Origin: Phycisphaerales bacterium
GTDB lineage: Bacteria; Planctomycetota; Phycisphaerae; Phycisphaerales; UBA1924
DNA length: 64,000 nt
Direction: 5' to 3'
NCBI GenBank assembly: GCA_020845755.1
Contig: JADLFE010000009.1
Location: 62,001 to 126,000 of the forward strand
In this document: piece by piece, positions 496 to 9,041 of the stretch
Numbering within the stretch: position 1 is the stretch's first letter
Layout: each line of letters opens with the position of its first letter
Program-made: the position numbers and the translations under genes
Notes under the pieces: model-generated
Database searches by the model: none
The model's input: the letters and a program-made list of their open reading frames with translations, nothing else
Told to the model about the DNA's origin: nothing

Positions 496-1272
496 CTATT
501 TCTCAAGCAACCACCAGCGACGGTGGAACGGGCGTTTGAGCGTCTCGGGATAGTTCGCCTCCACGCCGCGTTTGATGTGCTCCATCGCTTCATCGGGCGA
601 GTCGGTGAGGATCAGAAGATCGAGATCTCCGTGCCCGATCGTGCCCATCGCGAGCATCTTGTCGCGGATGAAATCGATCATCGGCGTCCAGAACGACACG
701 CCCATCAGGATGATGGGGAAGTTGCGAATCTTCTGCGTCTGCACCAGCGTGACTGTCTCGAAGACTTCATCGAGCGTGCCGAATCCCCCCGGTAAAACAA
801 CAAAGGCGTACGAGTACTTGACGAGCATCACTTTCCGAACGAAAAAATAGCGGAATTCGATCCATTTATCCAAATATGGATTCGGTTGCTGCTCCTTTGG
901 AAGAGTAATGTTGCAACCAAGCGACCGCCCTCCATATTCGCGGGCACCGCGGTTGGCGGCCTCCATGATGCCCGGGCCTCCGCCTGTCATCACCGTCAGA
1001 TCCAGTTCCGCCACCTTCCGCCCGACGTCACGCGCCAGCGCGTAGTAGGGATGATTCTCGGGGAATCGCGCGGAGCCGAAGACCGTCACGCAAGGTCCTG
1101 CAAAGTGCAGGGCGCGAAAGCCCTTGATGAACTCGGCGAAGATGCGGCACGCACGCAGAAACTCCTCGCCACGCGTGAGCGGACCGGACAGAAAACTGTG
1201 CTCGTCCGGGTGAGAAGGCTTGATCCAGACCTTCGTTCCATTCGGGATTGTTGGAGTACTGTCCTGAGCCAT
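496..1272 (-). CDS. LOG-family protein (putative nucleotide 5'-monophosphate phosphoribohydrolase)
   Basis: The protein has 258 residues. The two LOG-family signatures are clear: GGGPGIMEA at residues 97-105 and PGGFGTLDE at 161-169. Family members have a Rossmann fold and hydrolyse the N-glycosidic bond of nucleoside 5'-monophosphates; plant-associated versions release active cytokinin. An N-terminal extension of ~50 residues precedes the Rossmann core, as in the larger LOG subgroup. The crcB gene lies 50 bp upstream on the same strand, so the two may be cotranscribed, but no functional link is known to me. The substrate cannot be read from the sequence. Confidence 0.9.
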   Translation of the reverse strand: MAQDSTPTIPNGTKVWIKPSHPDEHSFLSGPLTRGEEFLRACRIFAEFIKGFRALHFAGPCVTVFGSARFPENHPYYALARDVGRKVAELDLTVMTGGGPGIMEAANRGAREYGGRSLGCNITLPKEQQPNPYLDKWIEFRYFFVRKVMLVKYSYAFVVLPGGFGTLDEVFETVTLVQTQKIRNFPIILMGVSFWTPMIDFIRDKMLAMGTIGHGDLDLLILTDSPDEAMEHIKRGVEANYPETLKRPFHRRWWLLEK

Positions 1273-1322
1273 GAGTCAAGAATCGATTCATCAAGAGTGA
1301 GCAGTCTTCTATCATTGCAGAA

Positions 1323-1703
1323 TTAAACGGCGACGCGCGCCAGGAAGAAGCCCATCGTGACCGCGATGAGACCGAGGATCAGGTTCGCGAACAGAAACAC
1401 CGCCGCCATCACGGGCCGCTGGTCGCGCATGAGTTGAAAAATCTCACACCCAAACGCGGAAAACGTCGTCAGCCCGCCCAGGAAGCCGACCATCAGCGCA
1501 AGCCGCAGCGATTCGTTCAGAGGGCGATACGAATCAAGCACGGCGAGAATCACGCCGCCGAGCAGGCACCCGATGACATTGACCGCGAGTGTCCCGACAC
1601 CCATATGGGTGGGGAATCGAGCATTCAGCCATGTGGAGATCGTGAATCGAACGATCGCTCCGATCCCGCCAAAGGTCCCGACGATGAAGCACTCCCGCCA
1701 CAT
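1323..1703 (-). CDS. crcB: CrcB/Fluc-type fluoride channel
   Basis: The 126-residue protein has four predicted membrane helices, the usual size for this family. The N-terminal GGIGAIVRF motif and the central GFLGGLTTFSAF motif are hallmark CrcB/Fluc sequences; the latter carries the conserved Thr/Phe residues lining the fluoride path. These channels are inner-membrane dual-topology dimers that export fluoride passively. Some bacteria need two crcB genes for a heterodimer; only one is seen here. I looked upstream for the crcB-type fluoride riboswitch core on the minus strand and did not find it. The LOG-family gene follows 50 bp downstream. Confidence 0.93.
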   Translation of the reverse strand: MWRECFIVGTFGGIGAIVRFTISTWLNARFPTHMGVGTLAVNVIGCLLGGVILAVLDSYRPLNESLRLALMVGFLGGLTTFSAFGCEIFQLMRDQRPVMAAVFLFANLILGLIAVTMGFFLARVAV

Positions 1704-2079
1704 ATTTTGGAATTATAGGTGAGATCGGTTCTGCCCTGGTAATCCTCAGGGAAAACTCTGGTTTCGATGCGAATGTGCATCCGGAACGCCGGGCGGGCGA
1801 TAATTTCAGACAAGTTCGGATTCTTGCTCACCGAAACTTCGTGTCTTAGCGCTTCTAAGTCTGGACGTGTGTTCCAAAGCACATGCTCGATCGAAATCAG
1901 GATTGTTTGAGGAGGAATCACACGGAGCGGGCGGCCGGGACGTTGGTTGGCCTGCTGGAGCCTTCGGTGCGGGGTCGCACGTGCGACCTCATGGGAGCCC
2001 GATCGCCTGCGTCAAGAACGGACTCGCGTCGGGATGTGCGTATCCACCACCCCAGCGAGAGCATGAGTGGGGATGATTC
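1704..2079. other. Intergenic region between crcB and the PAS-LuxR gene; nothing recognised
   Basis: This is a divergent 376-bp gap that must hold promoters for crcB (minus) and the PAS-LuxR gene (plus). Short open frames at 1867-2098 have unconvincing composition and no recognisable motif. I see no riboswitch, tRNA or clear palindrome. Confidence 0.5.
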
Positions 2080-2781
2080 ATGGCTGACGAACTGGTGATC
2101 TGTGACGCTTGGAGCCCGGAGCAAAGCCCGACGAGCGATCCGTCGGTGCTCTGGCAATTGCTGTTTTATACGACGAAAAGTCCGGTCTCGATTATCGATA
2201 TCAATGGACGGTTTCTGGCCGCCAACGACCTCATGGAATTGGCCTTTGGCGTCGCTCCGGGAACCCTCGTGGGAAGAAGCGCGTCAGAGTTCATGGCGCC
2301 GGAGTTCTTCCAGGAGCGGCTTGATGCCATCCGCCGCGTGGCCGTGACCGGACGTCCAGAAAACGTCACCGGCGCGACCATGGGAATGACCTCCCAGTGC
2401 GCGTTGCGTCCCTTGCCGACCCCTCCGGGCGGCGTGCCGCGCGTGCTTCATGTGCTGGGACTCGCAGGTCGGGACCCTCGCGGAATTCCCCTCACCCGCT
2501 TCAAACACGAGGACTTCGGACAACTCAGCACCCTCACCGAGCGTGAGCGAGAGGTGCTCTCCCTCATCGGGGAGGGCCTCTCCACCGCCGAGATCGCCGA
2601 GCGACTGCACCGCAGCGTGAAGACGATCGAATGGCACCGGGCAGCGTTGGGAACCAAACTCAATGTCTCGAATCGCGTCGAACTTGCGCAGATCGCGATG
2701 CGGCTTGGGTTAGTCCGAGATCAACAAGTGGCGCAGGTTCATACCACGACATCAGAGCCGGTGCAGCAGAATACTCCTTGA
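2080..2781 (+). CDS. PAS domain / LuxR-type HTH transcriptional regulator
   Basis: The protein has 233 residues. Residues ~25-130 look like a PAS fold (SIIDINGRFLAAN near the start, then a conserved GRSASEFMAP stretch). Residues ~150-211 form a LuxR/GerE helix-turn-helix with LTEREREVL, GLSTAEIAERL and SVKTIEWHR. There is no receiver domain with a phosphorylatable aspartate, so activity is probably controlled by a ligand or signal at the PAS domain rather than by a kinase. It sits directly upstream (60 bp) of the 2842 gene and its palindrome, on the same strand, which makes regulation of that locus possible but unproven. The target and signal are unknown. Confidence 0.8.
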   Translation: MADELVICDAWSPEQSPTSDPSVLWQLLFYTTKSPVSIIDINGRFLAANDLMELAFGVAPGTLVGRSASEFMAPEFFQERLDAIRRVAVTGRPENVTGATMGMTSQCALRPLPTPPGGVPRVLHVLGLAGRDPRGIPLTRFKHEDFGQLSTLTEREREVLSLIGEGLSTAEIAERLHRSVKTIEWHRAALGTKLNVSNRVELAQIAMRLGLVRDQQVAQVHTTTSEPVQQNTP

Positions 2782-2811: not shown

Positions 2812-2831
2812 CGTGAGAATCGATTCTCACG
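2812..2831. promoter_or_regulatory. Perfect 20-bp palindrome, candidate Fur-family (Zur-like) operator
   Basis: The sequence reads identically on both strands around a GAGAATCGATTCTC core, flanked by CGT and ACG. It ends 10 bp before the ATG of the 2842 gene and starts 30 bp after the PAS-LuxR stop. TGAGAAT-CG-ATTCTCA resembles the TGA.AAT/ATT.TCA half-sites bound by Fur-family metalloregulators, though with a two-base rather than one-base centre. A third ATTCTC half-site lies at 2801-2806, so two overlapping operators are possible. The regulator assignment is inference. Confidence 0.6.
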
Positions 2832-2841
2832 GACGAACGCC

Positions 2842-3249
2842 ATGCGAGGACGGAGGTTGAATTCAGGTTCGGCGAGCCTCGCACGCACGGCGTGGTGGCG
2901 CTGGCTGTGCGTTGCGCTGGTTGCGACCCTCTCCCTCGGTCCGGGCGGCCTCGAACGAGTTCACATCGGTGCGACCCACGATCACCTCGAACCCGCCTCG
3001 CGTGGGCGAGGAACGGTCGCCGGCCCCGCCGTTCAATCGTCCCATGGAACGGACACGGAGGTCTCGGCCCCGTGCGATACCTGCCGCGAACTTGAATGGG
3101 CCCGACTGAACCAGACGGGCACGTGCCCTGCGGTTCTGTGTTACGCCCCCACTGGCGATGTCGTTGATCGGTTCATTCCGATCAACGAGCAAGTGCGAGC
3201 GGTTGAGTCCGCGGCCCACATCCGCTCGCGGGCGCCGCCCACCACCTGA
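2842..3249 (+). CDS. Small secreted or membrane-anchored protein with His residues and a CDTC motif (unknown function)
   Basis: The protein has 135 residues. A basic N-terminus is followed by a hydrophobic stretch (WLCVALVATLSL, residues ~20-35) that could be a signal peptide or anchor. After it come scattered histidines (THDHLE, SSHG), then a CDTC motif at residues 78-81 and a further Cys pair near 95-100. The layout recalls small DUF2946-type exported proteins that accompany metal-transport genes, but I cannot place it in a family with confidence. It is the first gene after the 2812-2831 palindrome and probably heads the operon running to 9041. Confidence 0.55.
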   Translation: MRGRRLNSGSASLARTAWWRWLCVALVATLSLGPGGLERVHIGATHDHLEPASRGRGTVAGPAVQSSHGTDTEVSAPCDTCRELEWARLNQTGTCPAVLCYAPTGDVVDRFIPINEQVRAVESAAHIRSRAPPTT

Positions 3250-3371: not shown

Positions 3372-4223
3372 ATGACACTGATCCGCGGATTCGCCCCGGG
3401 CGGGCGATCGCGAGAGCGATCGGCGTTTACGCTGATCGAGCTCCTGGTCGTCATCGCCATCATCGCGATTCTGATCGCGATCTTGCTGCCCGCGCTCTCC
3501 TCGGCGCGACGGTCGGCGCGCACCACCAAGTGCCTCAGCCAAGTGCGTCAACTCGAGGTCGCCCACGAGTTCTACATGGACGCGAACAAAGAGGCGTTCG
3601 TTGACGCCGCCCTCTCGCACGGCGGGAGCGCGACGTTGAGCGAGGTCAAGCGAGCGTGGCCGTTCGCGCTCGCGGAGTACGCGGGAGGATCGCTGATCCT
3701 GCGTTCTCCCGGCGATGATTCTCCGAGGTGGGCGGTCACCCAGGGAGGACAGGATTCGGGCATAACGCTGGACGATCTGATGGGCGCGGTTCGAGACGGA
3801 TTGTCGCCCGACACACGGAAACTGGCGCGGTGGACCAGTTACGGACTGAACAACTGGCTCACGCGCAGCGTGAACCCGGGGTTCGATCCGAAGAAAGAGC
3901 CCTATGACCGACGCACGAAGATCCCATTCCCAGAGTCCACCGTTCACTTTGTCCAGATGAACGAGGGGCACACGGGGAGTGACTACGCGAAGTCGGACCA
4001 TATCCACGCCGAGGGATGGAGCGACGGCGGCGACGAGAACGCGCCGAGCGTGGCGAGTTCCGAGTTGGAACTCAACGCGCACGGTGGACCCGGGAAGTCG
4101 TTCGCGAGCATCGCAAACTACGGGTTCCTGGACGGGCACGCCAAGACCCTGAAGTTCGGCGATGTGTACACGGATTTCGATCACAACAAGTTCAACCCCG
4201 GCGCGACGCCGTACGCCAAGTAG
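3372..4223 (+). CDS. Type II secretion/type IV pilin-like pseudopilin with prepilin N-terminal methylation motif
   Basis: With the start at 3372 the protein has 283 residues; an upstream in-frame start (3303) would give an implausibly long leader. The prepilin signature [16 protein letters not shown] begins at residue 19, with Glu at mature position +5, followed by the single helix and the [14 protein letters not shown] region typical of planctomycete prepilin-like proteins. The C-terminal part holds the [14 protein letters not shown] segment found in the large planctomycete H-x-G/DUF1559-like group. Such proteins are processed by prepilin peptidase and displayed at the cell surface or periplasm; individual functions are mostly unknown. 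It sits second in the presumed metal-related operon. Confidence 0.85.
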
Positions 4224-4272
4224 CAGGCGCGACGGGGAGCACAGTCATGTCCCACCGGGACTGGAGATCAGA

Positions 4273-5055
4273 ATGAAAGCACTGCACACCTGCATGATCG
4301 CCGCGTCGACGCTGGCCACCTGCGCCGGCGGCGCGATGGCCCAACTCCACGCCGGAGACATCCTGCTGTACGTCCAGCACAACAGGATCGTGACCGGCCA
4401 GGTGAATGTCTCAACAGGCCTGCCCGAGCCGGGCGTCCGGGCCTTCCAGGCGGACTTCGGCGAGTCAGCCAACTTCACCAACGACCCGGGAATGGATTCC
4501 GAGGACGCTGTATTCCCGGGCGGGAGCGGGGTGGGGTTCACCATCCGAAAGGCGCTCCGCAAGTGGGATGGAGTCGACTTTGATCTGGTCCCCGACGAGC
4601 GGATTCAGATCAAACTCGGAAGCCTCGGTCCCATTGTCACGCCGTTGACGGACACGAATGTCATCGGATTCTCCTTGGCGGCCAACTCATTCGGCAAGTT
4701 CCATCATCACTGGGGGTACACGCTCCTCTCCCCGTCGGGCACAGGCATCTACCTGCTCGAATTGGAGTTGTGGAGCACCGCGGGCATCCAGGCCAGCGAG
4801 CCATACTGGTTGGTGTTCAACCAGAACGACTCGCAGGAAGATCAGGACGCGGCCTTCGCGTGGGTGGAGGACCACCTCATCGGAGGTGGGTGTCCGGCCG
4901 ACTTCAACCACGACGGGTTTGTCAACGCCCTTGACTACGACGCCTTCGCCAGCGCCTTCGAACTCGCGGACCTCGCGGGGGACTTCAACCACGACGGGTT
5001 TGTCAACGCCCTTGACTACGACGAGTTTGCCGAGCATTTCGAAGCGGGGTGCTGA
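4273..5055 (+). CDS. Secreted protein with HHHW motif and C-terminal two-repeat GC-ending dockerin
   Basis: The start at 4273 has GGAG seven bases upstream, giving 260 residues. Residues 1-23 are a signal peptide ending AMA/Q. The body carries GFTIRKALRKWDG, then FHHHWGY at 143-149 and GTGIYLLELEL. The pattern of histidines before Trp-Gly-aromatic and then G-YLLELE is reminiscent of choice-of-anchor surface proteins linked to metal ABC transporters. The C-terminus has two Ca-binding dockerin repeats, DFNHDGFVNALDYD at 210 and 237, and ends Gly-Cys. The repeats share a perfect 43-bp DNA repeat. It is paralogous to the next gene, which has a different anchor. Function in metal capture is inference. 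Confidence 0.8.
   Translation: MKALHTCMIAASTLATCAGGAMAQLHAGDILLYVQHNRIVTGQVNVSTGLPEPGVRAFQADFGESANFTNDPGMDSEDAVFPGGSGVGFTIRKALRKWDGVDFDLVPDERIQIKLGSLGPIVTPLTDTNVIGFSLAANSFGKFHHHWGYTLLSPSGTGIYLLELELWSTAGIQASEPYWLVFNQNDSQEDQDAAFAWVEDHLIGGGCPADFNHDGFVNALDYDAFASAFELADLAGDFNHDGFVNALDYDEFAEHFEAGC
4900..5023 (+). repeat. Perfect 43-bp direct repeat encoding the two dockerin motifs
   Basis: Bases 4900-4942 and 4981-5023 are identical, with an 81-bp (27-codon) period. Each copy encodes the Ca-binding loop DFNHDGFVNALDYD. Identity at all third positions points to a recent duplication or gene conversion inside the coding sequence. Confidence 0.95.
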
Positions 5056-5173
5056 GCGGCGGCGAGCGGAAACAGGAGACCGCGGGCGATTCCGGCGTCG
5101 TGTGTTTCGACGCGAATCGGCGGCATGAAAGTCACGAAGATGCTCGCGCGCGGCGCGGGCAGGAGAGAGTCAT

Positions 5174-5863
5174 ATGAACAAGACAAGTACGAATACGCTG
5201 GTGGTGGTCGCGGCGGCATCGATGACCGGGGCTGCCCTGGCGCACGGCGGCGACATCGGTTTCACGATCGTCGGAGGATCGCTCAAGACCGGTGACGTGC
5301 TCGACAACGGCTCGGGCGAGTTTGTGCTCCCCGGACAGCGTGTCTTCGGCGGTGAGATGCTGATCTCCGACGGCGTGTCGGACGAGCCGGGCTTCTACGC
5401 CCAGGCCGGCGCCCTTGATGCCGGAGAACTCATCGGCTTCAACGTCCGCAAGGCGCTGCGCGTGTGGAACGGCACGGATTTCAGCGCCATTGCGAACGAA
5501 ACGATGCGAATCGAGAATCCCGCGGGCACGGCGTTTGTCGACACACCGCTGACTGATCCCTCGTCGCCCATCGCCGCCGGCTGGGGATTTACGTTCCCCG
5601 CATCGGGCGATCTCGACGATCACCCGATCTACTACGTCAACGGGCGCACCGGCCCGGGCATCTACCTCCTCGAACTCGAACTCACCACGACGCAGGGGGG
5701 GATCATCAACTCGCCGAGTTTCTGGATCGTCTTCAACGACGGAGGTGACGAGATTCAACACGACGCCGCGATCGACTGGACGGAGGAGAACCTCGTTCCC
5801 ACGCCCGGCACGGCGTGTCTGCTCGGGATTGGCGGGATGACCATCCTGCGCCGCCGGCGCTGA
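5174..5863 (+). CDS. Secreted PEP-CTERM-like paralogue of the preceding dockerin protein
   Basis: The protein has 229 residues with a signal peptide to ALA/HGGD. Shared landmarks with the 4273 protein are GFNVRKALRVWNG, GPGIYLLELEL, the aromatic-W-(I/L)VFN block and DAAIDWTEENL, so the two are clear paralogues. It keeps GWGFTF but lacks the triple histidine of its neighbour. The C-terminus is PTPGTACLLGIGGMTILRRRR, a PEP-CTERM-like sorting signal (short proline motif, hydrophobic helix, arginine cluster), so this copy is probably handled by an exosortase-type system rather than by cohesin. An RBS-like GGAGAG lies at 5161-5166, ~7 bases upstream. It lies in the same operon. Confidence 0.8.
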   Translation: MNKTSTNTLVVVAAASMTGAALAHGGDIGFTIVGGSLKTGDVLDNGSGEFVLPGQRVFGGEMLISDGVSDEPGFYAQAGALDAGELIGFNVRKALRVWNGTDFSAIANETMRIENPAGTAFVDTPLTDPSSPIAAGWGFTFPASGDLDDHPIYYVNGRTGPGIYLLELELTTTQGGIINSPSFWIVFNDGGDEIQHDAAIDWTEENLVPTPGTACLLGIGGMTILRRRR

Positions 5864-6015: not shown

Positions 6016-6783
6016 ATGAGCAGCACATTCAAACACCACGGCGACACGGGAACACCGCGTCCGGCGCTCTCGATCCGAGGGCTGCGTTTCCGCTATGACG
6101 GCGCGGTCGACACGCCCGCCGACGCATGGACCATCGATCTCCCATCGCTCGATGTAGCCACAGGTGAGCAGGTCCTCCTCACCGGCGGTTCAGGGACCGG
6201 CAAGAGCACGCTCCTGCATCTCATCGCGGGCCTGGTCGATCCCGCCGAGGGCACGGTGCTGGTCGACGGCACGAACATCCACACGCTGGCCGGCGCGCCG
6301 CGCGATCGCTTCCGAGGCACAGCAATCGGCATGATCTTCCAGACCTTCAACCTCCTCGCGGGATTTTCCGCGCTCGAAAACGTGCTGGCTGCACTGATGT
6401 TTTCGAGCGTGCCGCCGGGCAGGCACATGGAACTGGCGGATGCCGCGCTTTCGCGCCTCGGAATCACCAGAATCCACGCGACGCCCGAGGAGCTTTCGGT
6501 GGGTCAGCAGCAGCGCGTGGCGGTAGCGCGGGCGGTCGTGTGCCGCCCCGTGCTGGTGCTGGCGGACGAGCCCACGGCCAGCCTTGATCCCGAGAACGCC
6601 GAGCACGCGATGGACCTGGTGCAATCGGTTTGCCGCGAACTCGGCGCGGCGCTGGTATGCGTCAGCCACGACCCGGCGATGGCGGCGCGATTCGAGCGAC
6701 GCGAGAAACTGGGCTCGCTGATTCGCGCGGCGATTCCTTCACCAGGCGCCGGAGCAGCAACGACGATGGGAGGCTCGCGATGA
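6016..6783 (+). CDS. ABC transporter ATP-binding protein, LolD/MacB-like
   Basis: The start at 6016 is supported by AGGAG just upstream; longer in-frame starts exist. The 255-residue protein has Walker A GGSGTGKST at 57-65, the signature LSVGQQQR at ~160 and Walker B VLVLADEPTASLD at ~180-192, with a QTFNLL Q-loop. The signature has Val in place of the usual first Gly (LSGGQ). The stop codon overlaps the start of the permease gene by ATGA, so the two are translationally coupled and form one transporter. Its nearest class is the LolD/MacB group, which powers periplasm-facing mechanotransmission rather than classic import. The substrate is unknown; neighbours suggest metal handling. Confidence 0.92.
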   Translation: MSSTFKHHGDTGTPRPALSIRGLRFRYDGAVDTPADAWTIDLPSLDVATGEQVLLTGGSGTGKSTLLHLIAGLVDPAEGTVLVDGTNIHTLAGAPRDRFRGTAIGMIFQTFNLLAGFSALENVLAALMFSSVPPGRHMELADAALSRLGITRIHATPEELSVGQQQRVAVARAVVCRPVLVLADEPTASLDPENAEHAMDLVQSVCRELGAALVCVSHDPAMAARFERREKLGSLIRAAIPSPGAGAATTMGGSR

Positions 6784-8063
6784 ATGACTGGACGATCATC
6801 CTGCGAAGCCTGCGGGCGAGGCTCTTCTCCACCGTCACCACGGCGGCGCTGGTCGCGATCGCCGTCGCGCTCATGCTCGTGCTCCTCATGATGCGCGACG
6901 CCGCCCAGCAGGCGTTCCGCCGCGGCGGAGGCGACATGCACCTCCTGATCTCCAACGACCAATCCTCGATGGTGTCGTTCCTGAACGGCATTTTGTACGC
7001 CAACCCGCCGCGTGCGCCGATCCCCTGGGCTCGCTACCAGCAACTCCGCCAATCACTCCCGCTGGGCGACAACGGGTACGCGATCCCCACGCAGATTGGC
7101 GACAGTTTCCGCGGGCAGCCCGTCATGGCGACCGACGCGGAGTTCTTCAGCAGGCTCATGCCCAATCCCGGCGAGCCGTGGGTCTTCGCGCAGGGAAGAG
7201 CGTTCGACGCCGATTTCCAGGTTGTGCTTGGCGCCCAGGCGGCCCACGCCACGGGCGTGAAGATCGGACAGCAGATCGCTCTCTCGCACGGCACGGGCGA
7301 CGCGGCCGAGCATGACCACGACCACGACGAGTTCAAGTACGAGGTCGTGGGGATTCTCGCGCCCACCGGCGGGCCGCACGATCGCGCCCTCTTCACAACG
7401 GTGCAGAGCACGTGGATCATCCACGCCCACGAACGGCGCGAGCGGGAGGCGGATGGCAAGCACATCGAGACGACCGCGGCCGACCTGACCGACGCCGATC
7501 GGAAGATCACGGGCGTGTATGTGCGGCTGGCGACGCGCAGCAATTCGGACGTGCCCGCGAACCTGCCGCAGGTGTTCGATTTGCTCCGCAAGGACTCGTC
7601 GATCGTGGTCGCGTCCCCGTCGGACGAAGCGAGGAAACTCCTCGTGATCGTCGGGAACATCGACATCGTCTTCCGCGCCATGGCGGGGGTGGTTCTGGTT
7701 TCCAGCGCGATCTCGATCATGATCGCGCTCTACAACTCGATGGAGCAGCGTCGGCGACAGATCGCTGTGCTGCGCGTGCTGGGCTGCAGCCGCCCGCGGA
7801 TCTTTGGACTGGTGCTGACCGAATCGGCGGTGCTGGGCGTGATGGGGGCCGTGGCGGGGCTGGTGATCAGCCTCATGGGCGTCCAGGCCGTGGTGCTGCT
7901 GATGAAGTCCAAGTTCGGGCTGGTGGTTCATCCGACGCTGACGCCGGACGTCGCGATCGTCGTCGCGGGGGCGGCGGTGGCGCTGGCGGCGTTGGCGGGA
8001 TTGGTGCCGGCGGTGATAGCCTACGGCACGCCGGTCGCGAAGAATCTCAAGCCGCTCGCGTAG
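6780..8063 (+). CDS. ABC transporter permease, FtsX/MacB type, with a His-Asp-rich periplasmic loop
   Basis: The ATG at 6780 overlaps the ATPase stop, giving 427 residues. One membrane helix lies at ~16-40, a large periplasmic domain follows, and three helices sit at ~295-318, ~345-375 and ~395-418: the FtsX/MacB layout. The periplasmic domain contains EHDHDHDE at about 177-184, a good candidate metal-binding loop. The cytoplasmic coupling segment NSMEQRRRQIAVLRVLG is typical of the family. With the preceding ATPase and the DUF3299-like protein next door, the arrangement resembles the Vibrio zinc-regulated Zrg-type gene set as I remember it. Metal involvement is inference. Confidence 0.9.
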   Translation: MNDWTIILRSLRARLFSTVTTAALVAIAVALMLVLLMMRDAAQQAFRRGGGDMHLLISNDQSSMVSFLNGILYANPPRAPIPWARYQQLRQSLPLGDNGYAIPTQIGDSFRGQPVMATDAEFFSRLMPNPGEPWVFAQGRAFDADFQVVLGAQAAHATGVKIGQQIALSHGTGDAAEHDHDHDEFKYEVVGILAPTGGPHDRALFTTVQSTWIIHAHERREREADGKHIETTAADLTDADRKITGVYVRLATRSNSDVPANLPQVFDLLRKDSSIVVASPSDEARKLLVIVGNIDIVFRAMAGVVLVSSAISIMIALYNSMEQRRRQIAVLRVLGCSRPRIFGLVLTESAVLGVMGAVAGLVISLMGVQAVVLLMKSKFGLVVHPTLTPDVAIVVAGAAVALAALAGLVPAVIAYGTPVAKNLKPLA

Positions 8064-8096: not shown

Positions 8097-9041
8097 ATGA
8101 AGGTGTTCTGGGCGATCATCGGTCTGCTCCTGATCGGCGCGGTGGCGACACTCCTCTTGACCGATCGCGGGTTGTCGTCGCCCAAGGCGATGCCCATCGC
8201 CGGGCCCGCAGCGACAACGCCAAGTCCCAACGAGCCTCTCCCCGAGCCCGGGCTGAAGAACCCCGCCAAGGACACGCGCGTTGCGGTGAAGCCAGAGCCC
8301 GCCGCGAACTCCAAGACTGAGGAAACGCCTGAAGCCAAGCCCGAGAATTCGCCTGAAATCAAACCTGAAGCAAGGCCGGCGATCGCGCCCGAAGCGAAGC
8401 CGGAGGTGACAGTCAAGGCGTCCCCCACTCCGCCGCCGGTTGAAGCGAAACCTGAGTCCAAGCCCGCGGAAACAAACGTGCTGGAGAACAAGCCGGCGGA
8501 CCCCGCCGTCGAGAAGCCGGGCGACGCACTCGCCGCGCCCGCCGCAGCGCCGCTCCCCGAGGTGAAGATCGAGAAGAAGGACGACGGCTCAATGCTGATC
8601 GACGGGCGATTTACCGTGAAGGGCGCGGGTACATCCGAAGACCCGTATGTCGTTCCGTGGGACCTGTTCACGTCGGTCGAGGAAGTCTACAAGCCGCAGC
8701 AGGGCAAGAAGGATCTCCCCGGTCGCGTCGTGATGTTCGACGGGAAGTTCGTGCGAATCGCGGGCTATGTCGCGTATCCGATGTTCGTCGATCAGCCGCG
8801 CGAGTTGCTCTCGATGCTGAACCAGTGGGACGGTTGCTGCATCGGCATCCCACCCACACCCTACGACGCGATCGAGGTGAAACTCGCCAAGGTCGTGACA
8901 CCCAAGGAGCGTCTGGCGACCTACGGCACGGTCGAGGGCAAGTTCGGCGTGAAGCCGTACCTCGCGGGCGACTGGCTCGTCGGGCTCTACTTGATGGAAG
9001 ACGCGAAACTGAGCGTCAAGGAATACAACGTCGGGAGTTGA
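8097..9041 (+). CDS. Membrane-anchored DUF3299-like protein with a KPE-rich linker
   Basis: The protein has 314 residues. It has an N-terminal membrane anchor (residues ~3-22), then ~130 residues rich in Lys-Pro-Glu repeats (PEAKPE, IKPEARP), which would form an extended spacer across the periplasm. A globular C-terminal half follows: VPWDLFTSVEEVY, FVRIAGYVAYPMF, WDGCCIGIPPTPYDAIEV. The G-Y-V...C-C-I-G-I-P-P-P pattern matches the DUF3299 family, small periplasmic proteins often next to MacB-like ABC genes. It starts 33 bp after the permease and is probably the last gene of the locus. The two adjacent cysteines could bind a ligand or metal; this is not known. Confidence 0.75.
   Translation: MKVFWAIIGLLLIGAVATLLLTDRGLSSPKAMPIAGPAATTPSPNEPLPEPGLKNPAKDTRVAVKPEPAANSKTEETPEAKPENSPEIKPEARPAIAPEAKPEVTVKASPTPPPVEAKPESKPAETNVLENKPADPAVEKPGDALAAPAAAPLPEVKIEKKDDGSMLIDGRFTVKGAGTSEDPYVVPWDLFTSVEEVYKPQQGKKDLPGRVVMFDGKFVRIAGYVAYPMFVDQPRELLSMLNQWDGCCIGIPPTPYDAIEVKLAKVVTPKERLATYGTVEGKFGVKPYLAGDWLVGLYLMEDAKLSVKEYNVGS

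Follow-up and report, generated by a model that had tools for sequence, protein, structure and literature searches.

The locus analyzed here raises the question of what is served by two neighboring secreted proteins that have one body in common and end in different C-terminal tails. In the window (the whole stretch of DNA that was analyzed, 64,000 nucleotides), the segment 2812-9041 most likely corresponds to a zinc-acquisition operon, predicted to be under Zur control, in which these bodies would act as extracellular zinc-capture proteins. Shortage of zinc probably turns the operon on, and the ligand of the bodies is probably zinc. Such a reading is based on a palindromic box that also precedes the only znuA gene of the genome, on a gene set like that of the zrg system, and on the presence of body genes beside zepA and Fur-family genes. 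The elements follow the order box, DUF2946-like gene, pilin-like gene, body 1, body 2, ABC ATPase, permease and DUF3299 gene, with the following features:

2812..2831, no strand assigned: perfect 20-bp palindrome CGTGAGAATCGATTCTCACG, predicted Zur-type operator (0-mismatch match to TGAGAATNNATTCTCA)
2842..3249, + strand: first gene of the predicted operon, encoding a small DUF2946-like His/Cys (CxxC) protein, either secreted or anchored in the membrane
3372..4223, + strand: type IV pilin-like protein with N-terminal methylation motif (TIGR02532, PF07963); the called ORF starts at TTG 3303
4273..5055, + strand: body protein 1, with signal peptide, predicted Ig-like beta-sandwich body and C-terminal dockerin
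4702..4710, + strand: codons of H144-H145-H146 (conserved H-x-H: H144 and H146)
4891..5052, + strand: GC-type dockerin with two DxNxDG repeats (NF041540, residues 207-260; PF00404)
5174..5863, + strand: body protein 2, paralogous to the first and ending in a PEP-CTERM-like tail; the H-x-H site reads D-D-H
5795..5860, + strand: PEP-CTERM-like sorting tail, hydrophobic stretch plus RRRR, no PEP tripeptide
6016..6783, + strand: ABC ATPase of LolD/MacB type, ZrgC-like (profile matches)
6780..8063, + strand: ABC permease of MacB/LolC/FtsX type, ZrgB-like, overlapping the ATPase stop by 4 bp
8097..9041, + strand: DUF3299 protein, ZrgE-like (PF11736, 19.5 vs. cut-off 22)

The secreted proteins encoded at 4273-5055 and 5174-5863 were indeed paralogous, as an earlier note on this DNA had claimed: both open reading frames were present, and BLASTP gave 33% identity over 210 residues (E 2e-29). 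The common body comprised approximately 185 residues, and the true start of the first protein was the ATG at 4273, inside a longer ORF (4162-5055). These were the only two copies of the body in the 4.2-Mb genome, and both genes were under purifying selection, with dN/dS values of 0.15 (first) and 0.14 (second) versus their orthologues in the closest relative (L127). AlphaFold2 models of the mature proteins were confident (mean pLDDT of 93.3 and 90.4, respectively), and the strands, as well as the helix after the body, came in identical order in both. Based on this order of secondary-structure elements, the models support the notion of a single fold, predicted to be an Ig-like beta-sandwich, with different C-termini.

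The body was found in 23 of the 392 genomes of the phylum sample, 21 of them in Phycisphaerales. Many members of this order and a small number of other planctomycetes had it, mostly as two genes in tandem, and its named relatives were nearly all MAGs from Phycisphaerales or planctomycetes. No NCBIfam or Pfam model covered the body, its profile matched none of the PDB sequences, and no significant structural neighbor was found, with nothing at an E value of 0.001 or better in Foldseek (best E 3e-3 with a TM of 0.34). The best VIA-align score (Z 7.5), to pilus lectins of the FimH/FmlH type, was at noise level, as values of Z < 8 are common for models with no clear match, and a fold-based identification of the body was therefore dropped. 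That weak resemblance to lectin domains is what would speak for bodies with an adhesin or matrix role, binding glycans instead of metal; set against the structural searches just mentioned, the histidines among the best conserved residues and the zinc-linked setting, this explanation appears very improbable.

With respect to these histidines, an HHHW motif had been described as exclusive to the first protein. This is true locally, but the feature conserved across relatives was H-x-H (H144/H146). Among the aligned bodies, H-x-H was found in every dockerin-type sequence, second copies carried either D-x-H or H-x-H at the site (D-D-H in this case), and the last histidine of the site was kept in every complete body sequence. 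Moreover, H26, near the mature N-terminus, was invariant in the first-copy alignment (A5). The body proteins are probable zinc binders outside the inner membrane, using H-x-H or D-x-H plus the N-terminal histidine.

The C-terminal modules had been interpreted as a GC-terminated dockerin on the first protein and a sorting signal on the second. The former was recovered, as a GC-type dockerin, above curated cut-offs (NF041540, dockerin_GC, 29.6 bits vs. 29; PF00404, 26.2 vs. 22.9). Its two repeats (window about 4901-4942 and 4982-5023) have approximately 42 identical bases in common, suggesting a recent internal duplication or conversion. The second protein terminates in VPTPGTACLLGIGGMTILRRRR, a PEP-CTERM-like tail with no PEP tripeptide; the tail alone scored under the cut-off (PF07589, 12.0 vs. 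20.7), and 10/24 members of the aligned family matched TIGR02595. In approximately 21 genomes the body genes were in tandem, one with a dockerin and the other with a PEP-CTERM-like tail, and in a FastTree tree of 66 bodies the dockerin copies mostly formed one group, with the PEP copies mostly outside it. Among relatives, tails were interchangeable, absent, or both on one protein: two dockerin copies each were present in L137 and L144, another C-terminal domain was found on bodies in L033, L034, L140 and L148, and L032 had a PEP tail within the dockerin group of the tree. Dockerin repeats and a PEP-CTERM tail occurred together on single proteins in L049 (10064-11257), L180 (6355-7386) and L181 (7792-8883), so these modules are not mutually exclusive anchors.

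The earlier note had further proposed one ligand-binding fold at two surface sites, reached through dockerin-cohesin docking and an exosortase, respectively, with the ABC permease as a possible receiver. This interpretation held in part. The single fold with two C-termini was supported, as was the link to the permease (see below), and an exosortase was encoded once in the genome (PF09721, 131 bits). The dockerin-cohesin anchor was not supported: despite approximately 92 GC-type dockerins in the genome (G000), no cohesin match was found in it (assembly 94% complete), and cohesin docking in this genome was rejected accordingly. Only 10/151 genomes of the order had a cohesin match. The paralogues with two tail types, the exosortase and the two parts of the tree that the tails largely follow all agree with the two-site model, but the scarcity of cohesins and the swapping, loss or combination of tails in relatives make it unlikely as a whole. 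Separate surface locations for the two bodies are considered hypothetical, since an exosortase but no detectable cohesin was encoded, and since the tails vary as described.

Regarding the other genes of the cluster, the protein encoded at 2842..3249 had itself no Pfam match; its relative in L036 was above the PF11162 (DUF2946) cut-off (27.5 vs. 23.7), and those in L117 and L048 were just under it. The pilin-like protein contained conserved histidine motifs (DHxH..W, NAHGG and FLDGHA), and it is possibly a metal-binding pilin. Its gene accompanied the body in nearly every locus examined, outside the class as well, the exception being L035, in whose genome the bodies lie apart. PF11736 was matched by 10/10 members of the DUF3299 set, with that of L131 above the cut-off and the window copy under it. 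The full gene order was retained in L127, L128, L132 and L133 (L115, also within the full-order set, is apparently the same cluster again), and in L117 with the two tail types reversed, while a single body gene was located directly before the ATPase gene in L129, L131 and L134. This conserved order, along with the shared Fur-family box, supports the proposed link of the bodies to the ABC permease. Further upstream (window 496-2781), a LOG-family gene, a CrcB-like gene and a PAS-LuxR-type regulator gene were retained upstream of the cluster in L127, L128, L131 and L133.

The permease contained an HDHDHDE loop and matched the structures of LolF, LolC and MacB. In addition, the ABC-DUF3299 module was located elsewhere in many other genomes, and some members of the ABC module family were found in genomes where no body pair was detected. 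Both the structural matches and this separability are consistent with a MacB/LolCDE-type machine for export or mechanotransmission, which would move a metallophore or help to release the body and pilin proteins; the bodies would then capture zinc outside the cell, with zinc entering by ZnuABC. For the Zur-regulated PA4063-PA4066 cluster of P. aeruginosa, PA4064-PA4065 were modelled as MacB and argued to export pyochelin-cobalt, the ABC part being regarded as a MacB-type exporter and not as a zinc importer (PMC11481552). On the other hand, deletion of zrgA in Vibrio impairs growth at low zinc, ZrgABC being a putative importer (PMC9817125), and one body gene lies immediately 5' of the ATPase gene in the three loci mentioned above. 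We consider an export function of the module possible, without favoring it.

The box upstream of the first gene was a perfect palindrome (TGAGAATCGATTCTCA), with 12 bp between its 16-bp core and the ATG at 2842. By chance, 0.01 matches with up to 2 mismatches would be expected in the window. Three such sites were detected in the whole genome, the perfect one being that of this cluster, and the reversed-pattern control gave zero sites in the same search. The only 1-mismatch copy (C60:20449) was located approximately 105 bp upstream of where the only PF01297 (ZnuA-family) gene appears to start; this gene encodes a ZnuA/AztC-like protein with a His-rich loop and is followed by an ABC ATPase gene. 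The 2-mismatch site (C45:82371) had no evident zinc gene and was treated as a chance match. In nine further genomes (L127-L134 and L143) the box likewise preceded this cluster, with 14/14 matches in L127, L128 and L131, 13/14 in L130, L132, L133, L134 and L143, and 11/14 in L129, and it was placed 9-12 bp before the ATG of the small gene in the six loci with a measurable start (the window and five relatives). Most of the distant relatives had no match to the box. In G337 (= L143), a related palindrome (TGGGAATCCATTCCCA) was found before a zinc-type znuA too. A conserved Fur-family palindrome at the promoter is hence common to the cluster and znuA, as would be expected of members of a Zur regulon. 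When palindromes before znuA and before the cluster were compared across relatives, GC-rich palindromes dominated. The strongest SBP genes of many relatives had other palindromes, as did the strong ZnuA-family genes in L060, L062, L059, L065, L066 and L071 (e.g. TTTAGGTGTACCTAAA, TTTTGATTAGTCAAAA, TGTAGCCGAGGCTACA upstream), and we take these to be similar to manganese-regulator sites.

Two Fur-family genes were found in the genome (C39:10102 and C52:119739), neither of them beside the operon. One of their products scored highest with ferric regulators, far under any cut-off, and the half-sites of the box (TGAGAAT/ATTCTCA) resemble Fur boxes. Both observations could indicate an operator for Fur (iron) or for the Fur family in general, and a system handling iron, copper or another metal. 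This seems rather improbable given that the second site precedes the only znuA, that relatives pair body genes with zepA, and that the gene set is that of the zinc-regulated zrg system. Specifically, a body gene was immediately followed by zepA (NF040463, 273 bits) in both G356 and G446, and in G356 a Fur-family gene and a DUF2946-like gene came next. A Fur-family gene was also present in the G242 cluster, and an ORF of the G185 cluster reads as Fur-family by its sequence alone. Speaking against zinc acquisition, DUF2946 is also known to adjoin metal efflux genes (PMC4176598).

In the zinc-acquisition mechanism that we propose, Zur would leave the palindrome at 2812-2831 when zinc is short, and the operon would be derepressed. 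The products then made would be the DUF2946-like His/Cys protein, the histidine-containing pilin-like protein, both bodies, and the MacB/LolC-type ABC module with the DUF3299 protein. The bodies would be exported by Sec, would use H-x-H or D-x-H and the N-terminal histidine to bind zinc, and would be held in the envelope or matrix by their dockerin or PEP-CTERM tails. In this way they would occupy the place of ZrgA in zrgABCDE, delivering zinc towards the cell, and entry to the cytoplasm could take place either via the Zrg-like ABC module or via ZnuABC, in which case the Zrg-like module would have another task. A bolder version, offered as speculation and unlikely in its entirety, is that the bodies form a new extracellular zinc-binding family working with a zinc-binding pilin-like protein; surface filaments and the two sisters, each with its own anchor, would capture zinc, which would then be passed inward to the Zrg-type ABC module.

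To our knowledge, extracellular zinc-uptake proteins are known from one experimentally studied family, ZepA. The pair seems to represent a mode of zinc capture at the cell surface that has not been described before, since a predicted zinc-shortage operon encodes, together with an ABC transporter, two secreted sisters that have a conserved histidine site and differ in their tails. If this is true, they would represent a second extracellular zinc family, unrelated to ZepA and with a conserved site, in bacteria hardly studied for zinc uptake. The bodies would also be a possible substrate-binding component for the Zrg-type ABC module where ZrgA is absent, which bears on the debate over the cargo of this module, and the tandem pair would allow the roles of dockerin and PEP-CTERM tails to be compared on one body.

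With regard to known zinc systems, the zrgABCDE cluster of Vibrio is Zur-repressed and encodes a DUF2796 protein, a permease, an ATPase, a DUF2607 protein and a DUF3299 protein (PMC9817125). Like this cluster and PA4063-PA4066, the locus analyzed here has a Zur-type operator (in this case predicted) and encodes, besides an ABC ATPase, a MacB-like permease and a DUF3299 protein, one small protein and a secreted product that is a candidate for metal binding; its ATPase-permease-DUF3299 gene set equals zrgC-zrgB-zrgE. Unlike zrgABCDE, it has the body pair in place of ZrgA (DUF2796), which is absent, and the pilin-like and DUF2946-like genes are added. Membership of the bodies in ZrgA/DUF2796 was rejected, as no Pfam match to such a family was obtained.

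In Anabaena, zinc supply is mediated by ZepA, a PEP-CTERM exoprotein under Zur repression (PMC10957091). The bodies are similar to ZepA and the all3515 family (NF040463) in being secreted with a Sec signal, often with a PEP-CTERM tail, and in their predicted beta-rich fold, histidine cluster and Zur link, yet the position and spacing of the histidines differ: the ZepA motif H-X2-9-H-F/Y-H was absent from the bodies, which have H-x-H or D-x-H in their second half instead. Neither dockerin tails nor pairing have been described for ZepA. Membership of the bodies in this family was also rejected (no NF040463 match at E up to 1; hhalign probability of 0.5%). Finally, the "choice-of-anchor" families of NCBIfam bear interchangeable C-terminal anchors. 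The bodies are like them in joining one body to alternative C-terminal sorting modules, and unlike them in that the alternatives are found here within one tandem pair of a single operon, largely following old branches of the tree.
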